Shown: piece after piece, positions 14,921-40,308 of the stretch
Layout: every line of letters begins with the position of its first letter
Numbering within the stretch: position 1 is the stretch's first letter
Source of the DNA: an uncultured Bacilli bacterium
Lineage (GTDB): Bacteria; Bacillota_I; Bacilli_A; RF39; UBA660
Assembly: GCA_947625635.1 (NCBI GenBank)
Contig: CANQPA010000008.1
Span: 1-40,338, forward strand
DNA: 40,338 nt
Direction: 5' to 3'
Made by a program: the position numbers and the translations under genes
The notes under the pieces: generated by a model
The model's database searches: none
What the model saw: the letters and a program-made list of their open reading frames with translations, nothing else
Told to the model about the DNA's origin: nothing

Positions 14921-16770
14921 TACTTACTTTCACCTCCATATTCTGTTTTAAGTGCTAACTCCAATACTGTTGCATCACTTTCTTCATTATTATCCAAAAG
15001 TATTTTTAAATTGGTAAACTTCTTAGCTTTTATCTTTAATCTAAATGGTTGTGGATTCTGTTTTATATTAAAACTAAAGTCATCAAAGTTTAAATCATCA
15101 AAATACGTCATTTTATATTCTATTCGCTTTGTTATAGGTGTTGTGTTGCGATTGGATTCATATCCTATCTCTAAACTAGATTTCATTTGAGGTTGAAGTA
15201 ATACCCATAAACGATACATTGTTTTACGTAAATATGGTGCCTCAAAATCATAAAAGTTCATATCCCAATGTGCTTTAATTGTTTCATTATAGAAAGTTCT
15301 ACAGTCTTTATCAAACCTAAATATATCTCCGTCTGGTGTTGATATTATTACATTATTATTTAATTTAACTATGTTATCAATTTCTACTGGTAAAACTACT
15401 TTAGAATAAGTATCATTCATGTAATTATAAATGTATATTTTTTCCCCTATTGCTATCCAAAGTTGATTATCACATTGTAAATCTAATGTTTTTGCCTTTG
15501 TTAAGTCTAAATCTACTAAATCTAGTTTTATTTTTTGTGAAATATCTTTCATATTACGCTCATCACGTACGTTAGTAGATTTCCACCTTATAATAGAATC
15601 TTTATCAATTGTTACCGGATCATTATCTATTACTTGTCCTTGATTAAATGCTATATTCCCATGTACTTCATTTAAAGGAAATGTCGCTGGACTTGTTACT
15701 GTTGTCGAATATTCTTCTCCAGTGTTTAAATCCATTGTATCTAGAGTCATATAATATGCTTCTGGCTTGTTTGTAGTAATTAATAATCTATCATAATGCC
15801 TACGTAAATCAGTTACACTAAAGTTACTAGCACCTATATCTATTTGGTTTACTGCTGGAAAATATTCAACTGATGGTACATTATTTGCTACTGCTGAGTA
15901 TCTTATTCTATTTGGTTCTTCTTCGTTTCCATATAAAAATACTCTTGTATCTACTCCTCCACCAAAAATTATTCCTGCTTTCATTTTTTCTATAAAACTT
16001 CTATCTCCATTACCTTTAGTCCAGTAAACGTCTATTGTATCCATCCCTTCACTCTTTGGCTTTCCATCATTACCAACAAAAGTTATTTTTCCTTCGGTTT
16101 TATCTACTGTATATTGGTCTGGTGTTAATTCTCTGCCTTCTACTATAACTTTATCAACAGAATCTATATTTTTTTCTGCTAATTGTAAATCTAAAGAGAC
16201 ACCTACATAATTACCATCACTATTAAAAGTTTGATGCTTTTTACCGGTAAGTAAGTTAATATCTTCAAATGGTGTACCACTACCATCAAAGGAAGTTGAT
16301 ATCATTACCTTGGGTATGTATCCTGCTACGTCTTGAAAAGTTTCTCCATCCCATGATTTATATTCATTTCCATTTAAAATATATACTTTTTTATCAAATA
16401 CAAAAAAAGAGGTAGGAGCATCACTTATACTTCCTACATTAATTACATTTTTTCCAAAATCTTTATATATTTCATTCTCTGCTATAGCATATAAATAACC
16501 AGCAGCTGCAACTAATAAATAATTAGTTCCTTTTAATTTTGCTTCAAACATTCCTTGTATTTTTGCTGAGCTATCTCGTTTTGTAAATTTTAAAATGTGA
16601 CGATATCCATACATTTTTTTTAGTTTATAATCGTCTGTTATATAAAAATTAGTCATATTTCCACTTTCACCTAATTTAATTTGTGTATCTCCTGTGTTAG
16701 ATAAATTAAGTCCTAAAAACTTATCTATACATAAAGGCGTTACTGGAGTTGTTTTTCTTATACTAGCCAT
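14920..16770 (-). CDS. Beta-propeller-like tail nozzle/stabilisation protein
   Basis: 616 aa with repeated beta-blade-like motifs (YLLVAAAGYLYAIAEN, KVYILNGNEYKSWDG, NQLWIAIGEKIYIYNYMNDTY); position next to adaptor. Confidence 0.5.
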   Translation of the reverse strand: MASIRKTTPVTPLCIDKFLGLNLSNTGDTQIKLGESGNMTNFYITDDYKLKKMYGYRHILKFTKRDSSAKIQGMFEAKLKGTNYLLVAAAGYLYAIAENEIYKDFGKNVINVGSISDAPTSFFVFDKKVYILNGNEYKSWDGETFQDVAGYIPKVMISTSFDGSGTPFEDINLLTGKKHQTFNSDGNYVGVSLDLQLAEKNIDSVDKVIVEGRELTPDQYTVDKTEGKITFVGNDGKPKSEGMDTIDVYWTKGNGDRSFIEKMKAGIIFGGGVDTRVFLYGNEEEPNRIRYSAVANNVPSVEYFPAVNQIDIGASNFSVTDLRRHYDRLLITTNKPEAYYMTLDTMDLNTGEEYSTTVTSPATFPLNEVHGNIAFNQGQVIDNDPVTIDKDSIIRWKSTNVRDERNMKDISQKIKLDLVDLDLTKAKTLDLQCDNQLWIAIGEKIYIYNYMNDTYSKVVLPVEIDNIVKLNNNVIISTPDGDIFRFDKDCRTFYNETIKAHWDMNFYDFEAPYLRKTMYRLWVLLQPQMKSSLEIGYESNRNTTPITKRIEYKMTYFDDLNFDDFSFNIKQNPQPFRLKIKAKKFTNLKILLDNNEESDATVLELALKTEYGGESK

Positions 16771-16781
16771 AATTTCCCTCC

Positions 16782-17189
16782 TTAATAATTTAATTTAGAA
16801 TCATATACATCTTCTCTCTTTTGAATTTCTGCTGGTGTTGGTTTTAAGAATGTACCTTTTAATTCTTCATATCTTTGTTGAAAGAAACCTGCTAAAGTTG
16901 TATTTTCGTGAATAAGTAAATGTGCTGCTAATCCGTTCGTTAAAAGAGTGTTTGCTTTTATATCATCTATTTGTACTATTTGATTTAAATCTTCTATTGG
17001 CACAGGAAAAATGTACTCTTCAAAGGCTCTATATCTGTTTTCAATACCTATTATTTCATTTTGCAACATTGTTAAAATATGAGGTGCTTTCGAGCGATAT
17101 TCAAGAGTGGTATTTGCATCTAATGTACCATTGTCGTTCATCTCGTCTATCATAGCCATTGTCATTATAAAGATATCTTCTGCTTTCAT
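16782..17189 (-). CDS. Head-tail adaptor
   Basis: Small helical protein directly downstream of MCP. Confidence 0.4.
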   Translation of the reverse strand: MKAEDIFIMTMAMIDEMNDNGTLDANTTLEYRSKAPHILTMLQNEIIGIENRYRAFEEYIFPVPIEDLNQIVQIDDIKANTLLTNGLAAHLLIHENTTLAGFFQQRYEELKGTFLKPTPAEIQKREDVYDSKLNY

Positions 17190-17211
17190 TTAATCATCTC
17201 CTCATATAAAA

Positions 17212-17229
17212 AGAACTCAAAAGAGTTCT
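17212..17229 (-). terminator. Intrinsic terminator after the major capsid gene
   Basis: Minus strand AGAACTC-TTTT-GAGTTCT followed by TTTTAT. Confidence 0.75.
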
Positions 17230-17271
17230 ACTTATATCAAAAGACTTAAAGCCCTTTGATAGATTTATAAA

Positions 17272-18117
17272 TTAGTCAACTGTTACTTCTTGATTAATAT
17301 GTGCATATATTCCTTCTTTTTTAGCATCAAGAATATGTGCATCATAAATTACACGACCTTCAACAAGGTTACCATTGATTCCAGGTGGATCTTGATGGAT
17401 TTTATAATCTTTTAACTTATCAACTGCTACTGCAACAGATGGGTGAGTTACAATGAAGTCTACTCCTTCTAAGAAATAGTCATCTGGCATTACTACAAGT
17501 GGTACTCCATCAATTGTTCCCATTTGTCCATTAATAAGCATTTTTTGTGATAAGTCTCCATTTCTTACAAATGCTTCATCTTGTTTTATTTTCTTGTAAT
17601 AACTTACAGAACATGCTGATATTCTTCCTCTTTGTGGTACTCTTTTATTAGTTAAGTAAGCTTGTGCATCTAAGAATGCTGAATAAGCATTTGTCTTAGT
17701 GATAGCCTCTTGCTCACTCTTTCCACCATTTTTAACTGCACCTTTACATAATACTTCCATACGATATTTATCCTCTTCTGGAGTGATAACTTCGTCGATT
17801 TGTCTACGTAAAGTTTTACCTGCACCTTTAATATTAAGTTGGTCTTTTTGATTACCTTTATCAATTGTATAAGTAAATGCACGGTCTTTTGTAACAGGCA
17901 TTGTTTGGATTGTATCTCCTAACTCGCTTGGTGTACCGTATCTACTTGTACCCTCTCTTTGATAATCTGTCATAGCAACAGTATCAACTGAATATACTGT
18001 GATAGATTTTACTCCATCCCATTTATATTCTCTGTTGAAGAATTTTTCAGTTAATGAACCAATTTTAAATCTTTCAGCAACCTTACTCTCATAACGAGAA
18101 GCTAAATTTACTGCCAT
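17272..18117 (-). CDS. Major capsid protein
   Basis: SLTEKFFNREYKWDGVKSITVYSVDTVAMTDYQ...YTIDKGNQKDQ; position after scaffold and portal. Confidence 0.75.
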   Translation of the reverse strand: MAVNLASRYESKVAERFKIGSLTEKFFNREYKWDGVKSITVYSVDTVAMTDYQREGTSRYGTPSELGDTIQTMPVTKDRAFTYTIDKGNQKDQLNIKGAGKTLRRQIDEVITPEEDKYRMEVLCKGAVKNGGKSEQEAITKTNAYSAFLDAQAYLTNKRVPQRGRISACSVSYYKKIKQDEAFVRNGDLSQKMLINGQMGTIDGVPLVVMPDDYFLEGVDFIVTHPSVAVAVDKLKDYKIHQDPPGINGNLVEGRVIYDAHILDAKKEGIYAHINQEVTVD

Positions 18118-24775: not shown

Positions 24776-25213
24776 TTAAGTGACATCTTTTCTACTACGT
24801 CTTTTTGTAGTTCGTTGATAATATTTATCATATATTCTTTGACATTGTCTTTTACAATAACCAACTATTATTGCTATTTCATCCCACTTCATGTGTTTTT
24901 CATTTCTAAGTAGAATTATCTTACGCTCTAATGGTTCGTACTCTCCTATGATTCTTAATTCTCTATCTATATACTCCATTAAGTTTTTACGCCTTTTAAA
25001 GATATAATCTAAAGTTGCGTTTATTTGCTTTATATCCTCTGTCTCTACGTATTTTAGCATTCTATCTACTCTTCTACCACCTTCTACTTTTTCTTTTGTT
25101 GTATCAACTGCTTGGGGTATTACAAGTGATTCTAGAAGTTCTTTTTCGTTTAACCAATAAGTATATTCATTATCTAATTGTTTTAATTCTTTGTTTGCTT
25201 CTTTTAGTGTCAT
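24776..25213 (-). CDS. ArpU-like / sigma-region-4 late transcription regulator
   Basis: EYEPLERKIILLRNEKHMKWDEIAIIVGYCKRQCQRIYDKYYQRTTKRR C-terminal HTH; sits between early and late genes. Confidence 0.7.
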   Translation of the reverse strand: MTLKEANKELKQLDNEYTYWLNEKELLESLVIPQAVDTTKEKVEGGRRVDRMLKYVETEDIKQINATLDYIFKRRKNLMEYIDRELRIIGEYEPLERKIILLRNEKHMKWDEIAIIVGYCKRQCQRIYDKYYQRTTKRRSRKDVT

Positions 25214-25415: not shown

Positions 25416-25436
25416 CCTCAGACATTAAGCCTGAGG
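25416..25436 (-). other. Hairpin downstream of the putative variable region
   Basis: Minus strand CCTCAGGC-TTAAT-GTCTGAGG, no following T-run. Confidence 0.5.
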
Positions 25437-25459: not shown

Positions 25460-26305
25460 TTATACACTCTCGATTGCAGATTTTAGAACTCGTATAACAG
25501 GGCGGACCCCATACTCGTTGTACGCGTGGTTGCTGCCGACATCGCCGCTCGAGTGGACACTGTACACACCGTACGTGTTGCTGGAATACGGAGTGAGTGT
25601 CCAATATCCCCAATTACCATTACATTTACGAATTTCTGCTGGTAACTCTTGCACTTCTTCTAAACTAATTAATCTTACGTAATCTACTGTCTCGATACCA
25701 TCAGCATCTATTGTCATAGGTTTTAAGCCACTTCTATCTAACTGTGCTAAGAATTCAGTATTTAAAACTGCTCTTATAATACTATCTCTCCATTTATTAT
25801 CATGAAAACTAAATCTTACATCTTTATAGTCGTCTAAATATTCTTTATTAAATATACCTTTTATATCATTTTCTGATAATTTATCTTTCATAAATAAAGT
25901 TTTTGTATCGTTATCTTCAGCAATAACATACCATTCATATCCTCCAAAACTTACAATCGAATGTTCACTTTCTTTATATTTTTTTAATTCCTTTCTTGCT
26001 TCTTTCAACTCTTCCTCTGCTTTTTTTATTCTTTCTTTTATTTTTTCTTCCATTTTTAAATTCCTCCTATTTTTACTTTCTTCTAAAGAAATATATTTTA
26101 ATCTTTCTTCATTTAATTGCTTTTTTAATATGCTATCATAGTCATAATCAGCAACTACTTTATTAGCAACTAATCTTGTTAATTCTTTATTTTCTTGTTG
26201 TAATTGCTCATATTCAAAATTAAGTCCATTTACTATATCAGACATTATTGTTATTTCGTGTTTACTTCCTAATAGTTCCATTAATTGTTTAGCCGTATTA
26301 TTCAT
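25460..26305 (-). CDS. C-type-lectin/DUF6273-like protein with coiled-coil N-terminus; candidate DGR target
   Basis: GGYEWYVIAEDNDTKTLFMKDKL...NGNWGYWTLTPYSSNTYGVYSVHSSGDVGSNHAYNEYGVRPVIRVLKS. Confidence 0.7.
   Translation of the reverse strand: MNNTAKQLMELLGSKHEITIMSDIVNGLNFEYEQLQQENKELTRLVANKVVADYDYDSILKKQLNEERLKYISLEESKNRRNLKMEEKIKERIKKAEEELKEARKELKKYKESEHSIVSFGGYEWYVIAEDNDTKTLFMKDKLSENDIKGIFNKEYLDDYKDVRFSFHDNKWRDSIIRAVLNTEFLAQLDRSGLKPMTIDADGIETVDYVRLISLEEVQELPAEIRKCNGNWGYWTLTPYSSNTYGVYSVHSSGDVGSNHAYNEYGVRPVIRVLKSAIESV
25497..25606 (-). other. Putative DGR variable region (VR)
   Basis: About 59% GC by hand count over 25501-25600 in an otherwise very AT-rich phage; coding strand dominated by NNC codons (AGC, AAC, TAC, CAC, GGC). 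Confidence 0.6.
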
Positions 26306-29385: not shown

Positions 29386-29718
29386 CTATTTTGTACTATT
29401 CCATTCTCTTTCTAATTGATTTTCTATTACACGTATCTGTAATTTGGTTGTTTGTATTGCTTCTTGATTTGCCTTATAAATTGTCTCAGCCACATCTCTT
29501 TTGAATCTCTTTTCTGCTACTTTAGGGATTCCATAAATTATTTGATTTATTAATGTTACTGGCATATTTTTTTCTGTTCTTAGTTTTAGCGCTTCTTCTC
29601 TTAGAATTATTTTATAGTCTTTCTCCGCCTCAGCATAATTTTTTCCTGTCTCTCTGAGTTTTTTTAAAGATACTTCTAATTCTTTTATTTTTTGTTGTAA
29701 TTCATTAAATAAATCCAT
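29386..29718 (-). CDS. Hypothetical coiled-coil phage protein, early operon
   Basis: 110-aa ORF adjacent to SSB. Confidence 0.55.
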   Translation of the reverse strand: MDLFNELQQKIKELEVSLKKLRETGKNYAEAEKDYKIILREEALKLRTEKNMPVTLINQIIYGIPKVAEKRFKRDVAETIYKANQEAIQTTKLQIRVIENQLEREWNSTK

Positions 29719-30116
29719 TAGTCAAAAGGTAACTCCTCTCCCTCTTCATCTGTATAAATAAAAGTCTTTTGTTCATTAACATTATCTGGTGTATTTTTAT
29801 TTGGCTTTTTTGTTAAAAACTCAAACTCTTCTATCGTTACCTCTGTTGTATATATTGTTCTTTCATCTTTTTCATAACTTCCAGTTACAATACGACCAAC
29901 AACTCCGATTCTATTTCCTTTTTTACAATATTTTTGGATTACCGCCGCCGGCTTTCCAAAAACTGTACAATTTATAAAATCACTACTATATGTTCCATCT
30001 GGGTTTTTGTAATTACGTCTTACTGCAAGTCTAAAATTTGTTACTGCTTTATTGTTGACTGTATATCTTAATTCTGGATCATTTACTATATTTCCTATTA
30101 ACATTACTTTATTCAT
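29718..30116 (-). CDS. ssb: Single-stranded DNA-binding protein
   Basis: MNKVMLIGNIVNDPELRYTVNNKAVTNFRLAVRRNY...DFINCTVFGKPA, acidic tail EGEELPFD. Confidence 0.95.
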   Translation of the reverse strand: MNKVMLIGNIVNDPELRYTVNNKAVTNFRLAVRRNYKNPDGTYSSDFINCTVFGKPAAVIQKYCKKGNRIGVVGRIVTGSYEKDERTIYTTEVTIEEFEFLTKKPNKNTPDNVNEQKTFIYTDEEGEELPFD

Positions 30117-38856: not shown

Positions 38857-38949
38857 TATAACAAAGATATAGGGTTTTCCTAACCAATGATATAGGAGTA
38901 TTTCCTTTATCATTATATCATAATTTTAATTAGAAAGAAAGTGATATAC

Positions 38950-40308
38950 ATGATGAAAAGTGTAAAGAAAATTATTAGAGTTGTTTTATATATACGTGTG
39001 TCTACCGAAGAACAAGTAAGGCATGGTTACTCAATAGAATCACAACTAAAACGACTGAAAGAATATTGTAAACTTCACGGTTATAAAATAGTGGCAATTT
39101 ATATAGATGCTGGTAAGTCGGCTCGTACTAAATTAAGTCAAAGAAAAGAACTTTTAAGATTACTTAATGATGCTCAAGAAGGAAAATTTGATCGTGTTGT
39201 ATTCTGGAAATTAGACAGATGGTTTAGAAATGTTTCTGATTATTATGCAATAAATAGTATCTTAGAAAAATGCAACGTAGATTGGGAATGTAGTGATGAA
39301 AAATTCAATACAACTACTTCTAATGGTAGATTATATTTAAATATCAAATTGTCAATCGGTCAAAATGAATCAGATGTTGATAGCGATAGAATTAAATTTA
39401 TCTTTAGTCAAATGATAAAAGATAAAAAAGCAATTTGGGGTACAAATAATTGCCCTCTGGGGTATAAAGTAGTAGGCTCTAAAAAGAATAAAAGAGTAAT
39501 AAAAGATAAACGTACTTCTGATATAGTAGAGTTTATATTTAAAACTTATGTAATTAATAATTCATATCGTAAAACCGCCTTTTTAGTACAAAATAAATTC
39601 GATTATATAATAACTTCTGATACTATTAAAAAAATGTTGAAAAACACTTTATATTATGGTGTTTATAGAGGTGTAGAAGGATATTGTGAGCCTTATATAA
39701 CTAAAGAGAAATTCGATTATATACAAAACTTATTACCTAAAAATAATAAACAAAATAAAAATCGCGATTATATATTTTCTGGTCTAATTGTATGTAAGCA
39801 TTGTGGTTGTAAAATGTCTGGTACTTTTACAAAAAATAAAAAGTGTTATAGATGTGGTAAATATAAAAATTATAGAACTTGTACTAACTCCAAAATAATT
39901 CCAGAAAGTAGATTGGAAGAATACTTATTAACAGAGTTTCCACACTTAAAAAGAGTGTCTATGCAAGAATCCGAGATAGAAGAAGGCATAGATTTTGATA
40001 AAAAACTAAAACAGTTAAATGTAAAACTAGATCGTTTGAATGAAATGTACTTAAATGATAGAATAAACAGAGAATCATACTATAAAAAGTATGATGAAAC
40101 TAAAGTTCAAATAAATGATTTAGAAAAACAAAAAAAGAAATCAAAAAAACCTAAAGAGATAATAAAATTAAATGTTAATTTTTATAAACTCTATAATAAA
40201 CTTGATGATGAGCACAAAAGAAGTTTTATTAATAAATATATTGATTATATTGAATATGATAGTGAAAAAGATTTATTCGACGAAAGAATAAATATTATTT
40301 TGAAATAG
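38950..40308 (+). CDS. Large serine integrase of the prophage
   Basis: RVVLYIRVSTEEQVRHGYSIESQLKRLKEYCKLHGY...FDRVVFWKLDRWFRN; zinc ribbon CKHCGCKMSG...CYRCGKYKNYRTCTNS; coiled coil. Confidence 0.95.
   Translation: MMKSVKKIIRVVLYIRVSTEEQVRHGYSIESQLKRLKEYCKLHGYKIVAIYIDAGKSARTKLSQRKELLRLLNDAQEGKFDRVVFWKLDRWFRNVSDYYAINSILEKCNVDWECSDEKFNTTTSNGRLYLNIKLSIGQNESDVDSDRIKFIFSQMIKDKKAIWGTNNCPLGYKVVGSKKNKRVIKDKRTSDIVEFIFKTYVINNSYRKTAFLVQNKFDYIITSDTIKKMLKNTLYYGVYRGVEGYCEPYITKEKFDYIQNLLPKNNKQNKNRDYIFSGLIVCKHCGCKMSGTFTKNKKCYRCGKYKNYRTCTNSKIIPESRLEEYLLTEFPHLKRVSMQESEIEEGIDFDKKLKQLNVKLDRLNEMYLNDRINRESYYKKYDETKVQINDLEKQKKKSKKPKEIIKLNVNFYKLYNKLDDEHKRSFINKYIDYIEYDSEKDLFDERINIILK

Follow-up and report, generated by a model that had tools for sequence, protein, structure and literature searches.

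A DUF6273 gene of a temperate phage in uncultured Bacilli, likely diversified in trans by a chromosomal retroelement of its host

The window, by which we mean the whole stretch of DNA analysed, is an entire 40,338-bp contig (C8) of a 1.3-Mb metagenome-assembled genome, G000, the assembly of which is 89.7% complete with 7.8% (7.84%) contamination. It holds a prophage with genes for terminase, portal, capsid, tail, SSB, exonuclease, ERF, a DnaD-like protein and integrase. The target gene (25460-26305, minus strand) encodes 281 aa, in which a predicted long N-terminal helix, coiled-coil-like and covering residues 4-110 (25976-26296, minus strand), precedes a C-terminal DUF6273 domain at residues 163-272 (25490-25819, minus strand). 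The domain matches the PF19789 profile with an E-value of 2.7e-7, scoring 31.0 bits against a gathering cut-off of 23.5. Downstream of the target gene, and ahead of the terminase genes, lies a transcriptional-regulator-like gene (phrog_36; 24776-25213, minus strand), while the phage SSB gene (29718-30116, minus strand) is found 3.4 kb away.

The 3' part of the target gene is set apart by its composition. The GC content of positions 25497-25606 is 57.3%, compared with a window mean of 28.8% (SD 5.4%, 110-bp windows), a value reached at just 17 of ~40,200 window positions. Codons ending in C make up 50% of this segment and 4% of the gene's first 230 codons; AGC, AAC and TAC each occur three times, CAC and GGC twice. 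An earlier, sequence-only reading of the window had proposed an orphan variable region of a diversity-generating retroelement (DGR) here. Its claim of a GC-rich segment in an AT-rich phage held (about 59% by its hand count), as did its codon counts and GVRP motif, as stated. We also confirm its observation that neither a reverse transcriptase (RT) nor a template repeat (TR) lies in the window. Its description of the segment as the last ~37 codons held only in part, as 12-13 ordinary AT-rich codons (VIRVLKSAIESV) follow GVRP before the end of the protein. The extent, which it had given as 25497-25606, is adjusted: the block homologous to template repeats of genus g139 comprises 95 nt, 25500-25594 (minus strand). 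At its GC-rich 3' end, GGGGTCCGCCC (GVRP; 25500-25510, minus strand) is common to variable repeat (VR) and TR, is IMH-like and marks where their homology ends. That 25500-25594 is a DGR variable repeat, lying within a DUF6273 gene whose prophage is AT-rich, is very likely, on the strength of a comparison of the window copy with a homologous TR array; no exact TR is available for it.

The same reading had called the protein DUF6273-type and lectin-like. The DUF6273 assignment held, with PF19789 above its cut-off; the lectin fold finds no match among solved structures. A structure model of the protein (pLDDT 71.8) is moderately confident in the C-terminal domain and of low confidence in the VR. 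The modelled fold matches viral DUF6273 proteins in BFVD (E about 3e-4), and a structure search returned no significant PDB match and no solved lectin. DUF6273 has been reported as a C-type-lectin-like domain in which the VR forms a surface hairpin (PMC10743442), and it is from that report, by analogy, that a lectin-like fold is taken for the target protein.

DGR RTs are frequent in the family of the window, occurring in 167 of 291 genomes. The G000 assembly has a single clear RT (one RVT_1 match), on contig C36. This locus (L006 125-3991) is a complete DGR: besides the RT it comprises Avd, a MutS_I-like ORF, a TR and a VR-bearing target of pilin-like, lectin type. The avd frame of this DGR is split around 2740-2760, by either a frameshift or an assembly error. 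As a source of the window VR the C36 element was ruled out: its TR is unrelated to the phage segment and fits its own neighbouring pilin-like lectin target, with 19 of 26 mismatches at A. Blastn of the G000 assembly found no TR for the window VR, nor did an A-aware scan that took in the window together with C36 and C40, and a degenerate A-aware pattern allowing up to 3 further mismatches matched, across the whole assembly, the VR itself alone. The absence of a TR is weak evidence because repetitive arrays can break short-read contigs, as the position of the G091 array at a contig end illustrates. Two large chromosomal proteins of G000 (L007 2475-6026 and 6073-9651) carry four DUF6273-like ends reading GVRPVVYLK; these are likely further DGR targets, again with no TR in the assembly.

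Beyond the host assembly, VR-like DNA was absent from 16 other genomes of the window's genus, and GenBank phages gave no match. IMG/VR, searched by protein, by 3'-flank pattern and by TR pattern, yielded nothing close. An alignment-based IMG/VR search recovered four distant relatives, and tblastn detected no RT in the stretches of them that were examined.

A DNA search with the VR across 386 genomes of the family gave strong matches in genus g139 only (G153, G256 and G332). This genus consists of rabbit-gut Bacilli MAGs; three members were sampled and 3/3 were positive. When GTDB genomes were scanned with a pattern, the TR type turned up in these three and nowhere else. Most matches in G153 and G256 are tandem TR arrays, of 13 and 5 units respectively, at a spacing of 267-306 bp, located downstream of chromosomal targets of 1,060-1,089 aa that carry such a VR too. 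Every array TR ends in GGGGTCCGCCC and then continues ACTCGATA, whereas the VRs continue with coding sequence, and a conserved ACTCGATARTGTTT element follows each array TR. When the window VR was compared with four ungapped TRs of one G256 array, counting only columns where the four agree, 7/19 invariant A columns were changed and 0/53 invariant non-A columns (Fisher test, 3.4e-5), in support of the proposed DGR interpretation. The closest single TR differs from the window VR by 18 mismatches, 12 of them at A; at each remaining mismatch column some array unit has either A or the VR base. It is therefore possible to explain the window VR by a mosaic of TRs or by an unsampled sibling unit, albeit under a permissive criterion.

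Tandem TR arrays were seen in four genomes of three genera, at L099 6829-10308 (minus strand; 13 units), L092 8021-9239 (minus strand; 5 units), L091 2257-3974 (plus strand; 8 units) and L136 ~16700-17387 (plus strand; at least 3 units). Pairwise differences among array units fall at columns involving A in 203/287 cases, and the array templates may, conceivably, themselves be products of A-directed mutation. An element (such as TTTAAGGAT or ATTAAGGTTATAATA) that is possibly common after TRs was noted in L092, L099, L134, L006, L091 and L096 and could be a structural part of the template RNA. ORFs resembling PD-(D/E)XK nuclease family transposases, inferred from sequence alone, lie near TRs or the RT locus in g139 (L099 10552-11490, L131 4473-5399 and L148 7487-7999).

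Template-directed change is also seen in an orthologue of the target gene. Contig C1 of G332 carries an orthologous VR gene with 72% aa identity and the same ending, GVRPVIRVLKSAIESV, lacking the first 84 residues of the window protein. The surrounding prophage is a different one from that of the window, and its genes include those for tape measure, head, portal, terminase, NinB, a RecE-like protein and integrase. It can be placed on the chromosome because the contig runs on into era (a GTPase with KH domain) and yqfD, and tblastn found no RT in C1. Contig C62 of the same genome bears a MutS_I-like ORF, Avd and RT with a TR directly downstream. Over 99 nt, the prophage VR and the C62 TR differ by 13 mismatches, of which 13/13 fall at template A (Fisher test, 1.1e-8): 7 to G, 4 to T and 2 to C. 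The pair scores 74, compared with 17 for the best of the other loci examined and 12.8 for the best of 20 shuffles. RT cassettes of the C62 type in G153 and G256 (78-79% aa) adjoin a uvrD-type helicase and ligA, which is a core chromosomal locus; judging from these orthologues, C62 is a contig of chromosomal type.

An ordinary fast-evolving or laterally acquired GC-rich domain, with no DGR involved, would have the absence of a TR from the assembly as its sole support. This explanation is very unlikely, since all 13 mismatches of the orthologue lie at A and no invariant non-A column is changed in the window copy, and it is contradicted by the exact TR/VR pairs.

A second genus, g77, provides a comparable case. 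In G091, a prophage on contig C3 has three DUF6273 genes near its SSB gene, and contig C12 carries Avd, RT and a MutS_I-like ORF together with truA, uvrB, serS and cysK-like genes (named from sequence), with at least 3 TR-like units near the contig end. Against one C12 unit, two of the prophage VRs differ at A in 8/8 and 14/16 of their mismatches (Fisher tests, 1.4e-5 and 1.1e-7); the two non-A exceptions lie in codons that read AAT AAT in a neighbouring C12 unit. The three paralogous VR-bearing genes of this prophage lie at L054 12579-13184, 14826-15524 and 19328-19753, and two of them have a nearly identical 3' flank downstream of the VR. Contig C3 carries a DGR-type RT of its own, near which no TR was found for the early-gene, SSB-region VRs. 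In G223, a prophage VR shows homology to a TR whose contig also carries tuf and ackA; with just 15/27 mismatches at A the two were rejected as an exact pair. No TR was present in the stretch of G218 examined.

We have shown, in two related genera, exact A-only pairs between TRs on chromosomal-type contigs and VRs in prophage genes, one of them being the orthologue of the window gene (the second G091 pair stands at 14/16). The sequence-only reading had suggested that RT and TR act in trans, and had proposed searching the host genome for a TR, next to an RT, that differs only at adenines, together with a comparison of related prophages. No such TR exists in G000, at 89.7% completeness; the search succeeded in G332 and G091, and the related prophage in G332 gave the fully A-confined result described above. 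Action in trans is thus borne out in sister genomes and inferred for the window copy. We judge it likely that a chromosomal DGR of the host acts in trans to diversify the DUF6273 prophage gene, which lies between the replication genes and terminase of a temperate phage. The trans source of the window copy itself is an inference from the orthologue, the TR array either being missing from the host's assembly or having belonged to an earlier host. Against the trans reading stand the lack of a TR for the window VR in its own assembly, the unrelated template of the host's only clear RT, and a closest TR that requires a mosaic or a missing sibling. Furthermore, there are no read-level variation data, and the orthologue comparison rests on two copies only.

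One alternative is a phage-encoded DGR: this phage, or another resident in the same cell, would have supplied the RT and TR, since lost or left unassembled, with no part played by a host DGR. Faecalibacterium phages are known to carry DGRs of their own that have DUF6273 targets, and the DGR-type RT on C3 of G091 is consistent with such an origin. Conversely, the matching g139 and g77 TRs occur on contigs with core genes or with a core-locus RT cassette, the TR motif was absent from the IMG/VR search, the C3 RT has no nearby TR for the early-gene VRs, and no RT was found in G332 C1 or in the examined stretches of the IMG/VR relatives. We consider this alternative unlikely; given that phage contigs in collections are incomplete, a TR carried by a phage is not ruled out altogether.

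Another alternative is that the window VR is a relic, which gained its diversity in an earlier host or phage of g139-like type and is now frozen in a host lacking the template. The absence of a matching TR from its own assembly and genus would fit, as would the subfamily-specific bases (e.g. ACACG, AACGAG) that the g139 TRs have in common. Against it, the absence carries little weight where arrays break contigs (the G091 array sits at a contig end, and a G332 target on C28 ends 450 bp short of its contig end), and the reading frame and fold constraints are intact. On balance we lean against a relic, without being able to dismiss it. Misbinning, which we consider rather unlikely, also remains possible, in that C8 may really derive from a g139-like genome possessing the TR; the contamination of the MAG, and the confinement of TR matches to g139, would allow it. 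Set against this, C40, a chromosomal contig of G000, likewise encodes DUF6273 targets, whose ends read GVRPVVYLKSNI and whose VR motifs are similar, and head and packaging genes differ between the window phage and the G332 phage.

Under our preferred reading of diversification in trans, a host chromosomal DGR comprising the MutS_I-like protein, Avd and RT would transcribe template repeats that adjoin the RT or form tandem arrays elsewhere on the host chromosome. The transcripts would be reverse-transcribed with errors at adenines, and the resulting cDNA would replace the prophage VR by way of the homology that ends at the GC-rich GGGGTCCGCCC. A further element that may take part is an 8-bp inverted repeat, CCTCAGGC-TTAAT-GTCTGAGG (25416-25436, minus strand), ~63 nt beyond the VR. 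It is kept in the G332 orthologue with one compensatory change of an A:T to a G:C pair, and is possibly, though without proof, a target-recognition hairpin. In the Bordetella phage BPP-1 DGR (PMC3240598), likewise A-specific in its mutagenic homing, a GC-rich 3' block and a downstream hairpin serve as target elements. The BPP-1 hairpin lies 4-34 bp away with a GRNA loop, whereas the window hairpin has no GRNA loop and departs from that rule in distance as well as loop; only one orthologue was compared. BPP-1 moreover differs in that the phage itself carries all of RT, TR and VR, arranged in cis, and in its tail-fibre target. Inverted repeats are also present downstream of several SSB-adjacent DUF6273 genes of a set from four phages (L054, L056, L057 and L141), in each of which a VR-bearing DUF6273 gene lies immediately beside the SSB gene.

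The phage DGRs known to date carry all of their own components and act for the most part on tail proteins. The prophage DGRs of Faecalibacterium (Roos, Pioen, Lelie and CP11; PMC11792537) resemble the present system in having gut-phage targets with C-terminal DUF6273 VRs, among them a second target of small size; there, RT and TR are encoded by the phages themselves, whereas the phage genes described here come without either and their relatives' TRs lie on host chromosomes. The tentaclins and the nd4/nd12 phage DGR targets (PMC10743442) share DUF6273; the tentaclin genes analysed in that work sit in phage DGR cassettes and their products are proposed to bind receptors, whereas the window gene lies between replication genes and terminase. 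DGR action in trans on cellular targets has been reported for Thiohalocapsa PB-PSB1 (PMC10907252); the targets there are cellular defence-type genes and the remote targets here are prophage genes. In Treponema denticola (PMC4891356), too, target genes lie at a long distance from the core cassette, and there are isolates that have targets without an RT or TR; in that study no phage genes were associated with the DGR locus, and the sections bearing on it contain no tandem TR array. A large survey of genomes (Wu et al. 2018) reportedly noted multi-TR DGRs, and Roux et al. have stated that remote targets would be missed by metagenome surveys. In the limited collection of literature searched, we found no report describing a chromosomal DGR of the host that serves genes of a prophage, and none describing template repeats in tandem arrays.

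If correct, the diversification of prophage genes by a host DGR would mean that phage and host divide labour in a new way, and would imply that orphan phage VRs should be searched against host chromosomes. Tandem TR arrays with differing units would make a DGR with a template library directly testable. Diversification by a host DGR would also raise the question of why a gene outside the tail module needs to be hypervariable. In the window and in G332 the VR gene lies between replication genes (SSB in the window) and terminase, and in G091, G223, G218 and IMG/VR L141 it directly adjoins the SSB gene; the tail-module location expected of a phage receptor-binding or tail protein was met in none of these six. 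Because the gene is outside that module, a virion role for the protein is not favoured, although it is not excluded. The protein may instead be a non-virion binder of changing ligand specificity, with both binding and function inferred. It is tempting to speculate that, for temperate phages of this family, the host chromosomal DGR with its arrays of several TR units is a mutation service that they share, and that they themselves carry only a VR gene beside or near SSB. The product would be a lectin-like protein, probably intracellular, whose binding specificity shifts in the lysogen; host defence or rival phages are conceivable targets. We regard this bolder reading as about as likely as not.

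Some further features of the window are recorded here. The C-terminal part of a serine recombinase lies at the contig start (3-797) and a complete, unrelated one at the end (38941-40308); the left fragment may be what remains in view of the gene or element that received the prophage insertion. The window's other GC-rich stretch (980-1080) falls in an ORF of collagen repeats (779-1144), which is not part of the structural module of the phage, and a tRNA-Ile (GAT) gene is located within the phage at 24475-24549.
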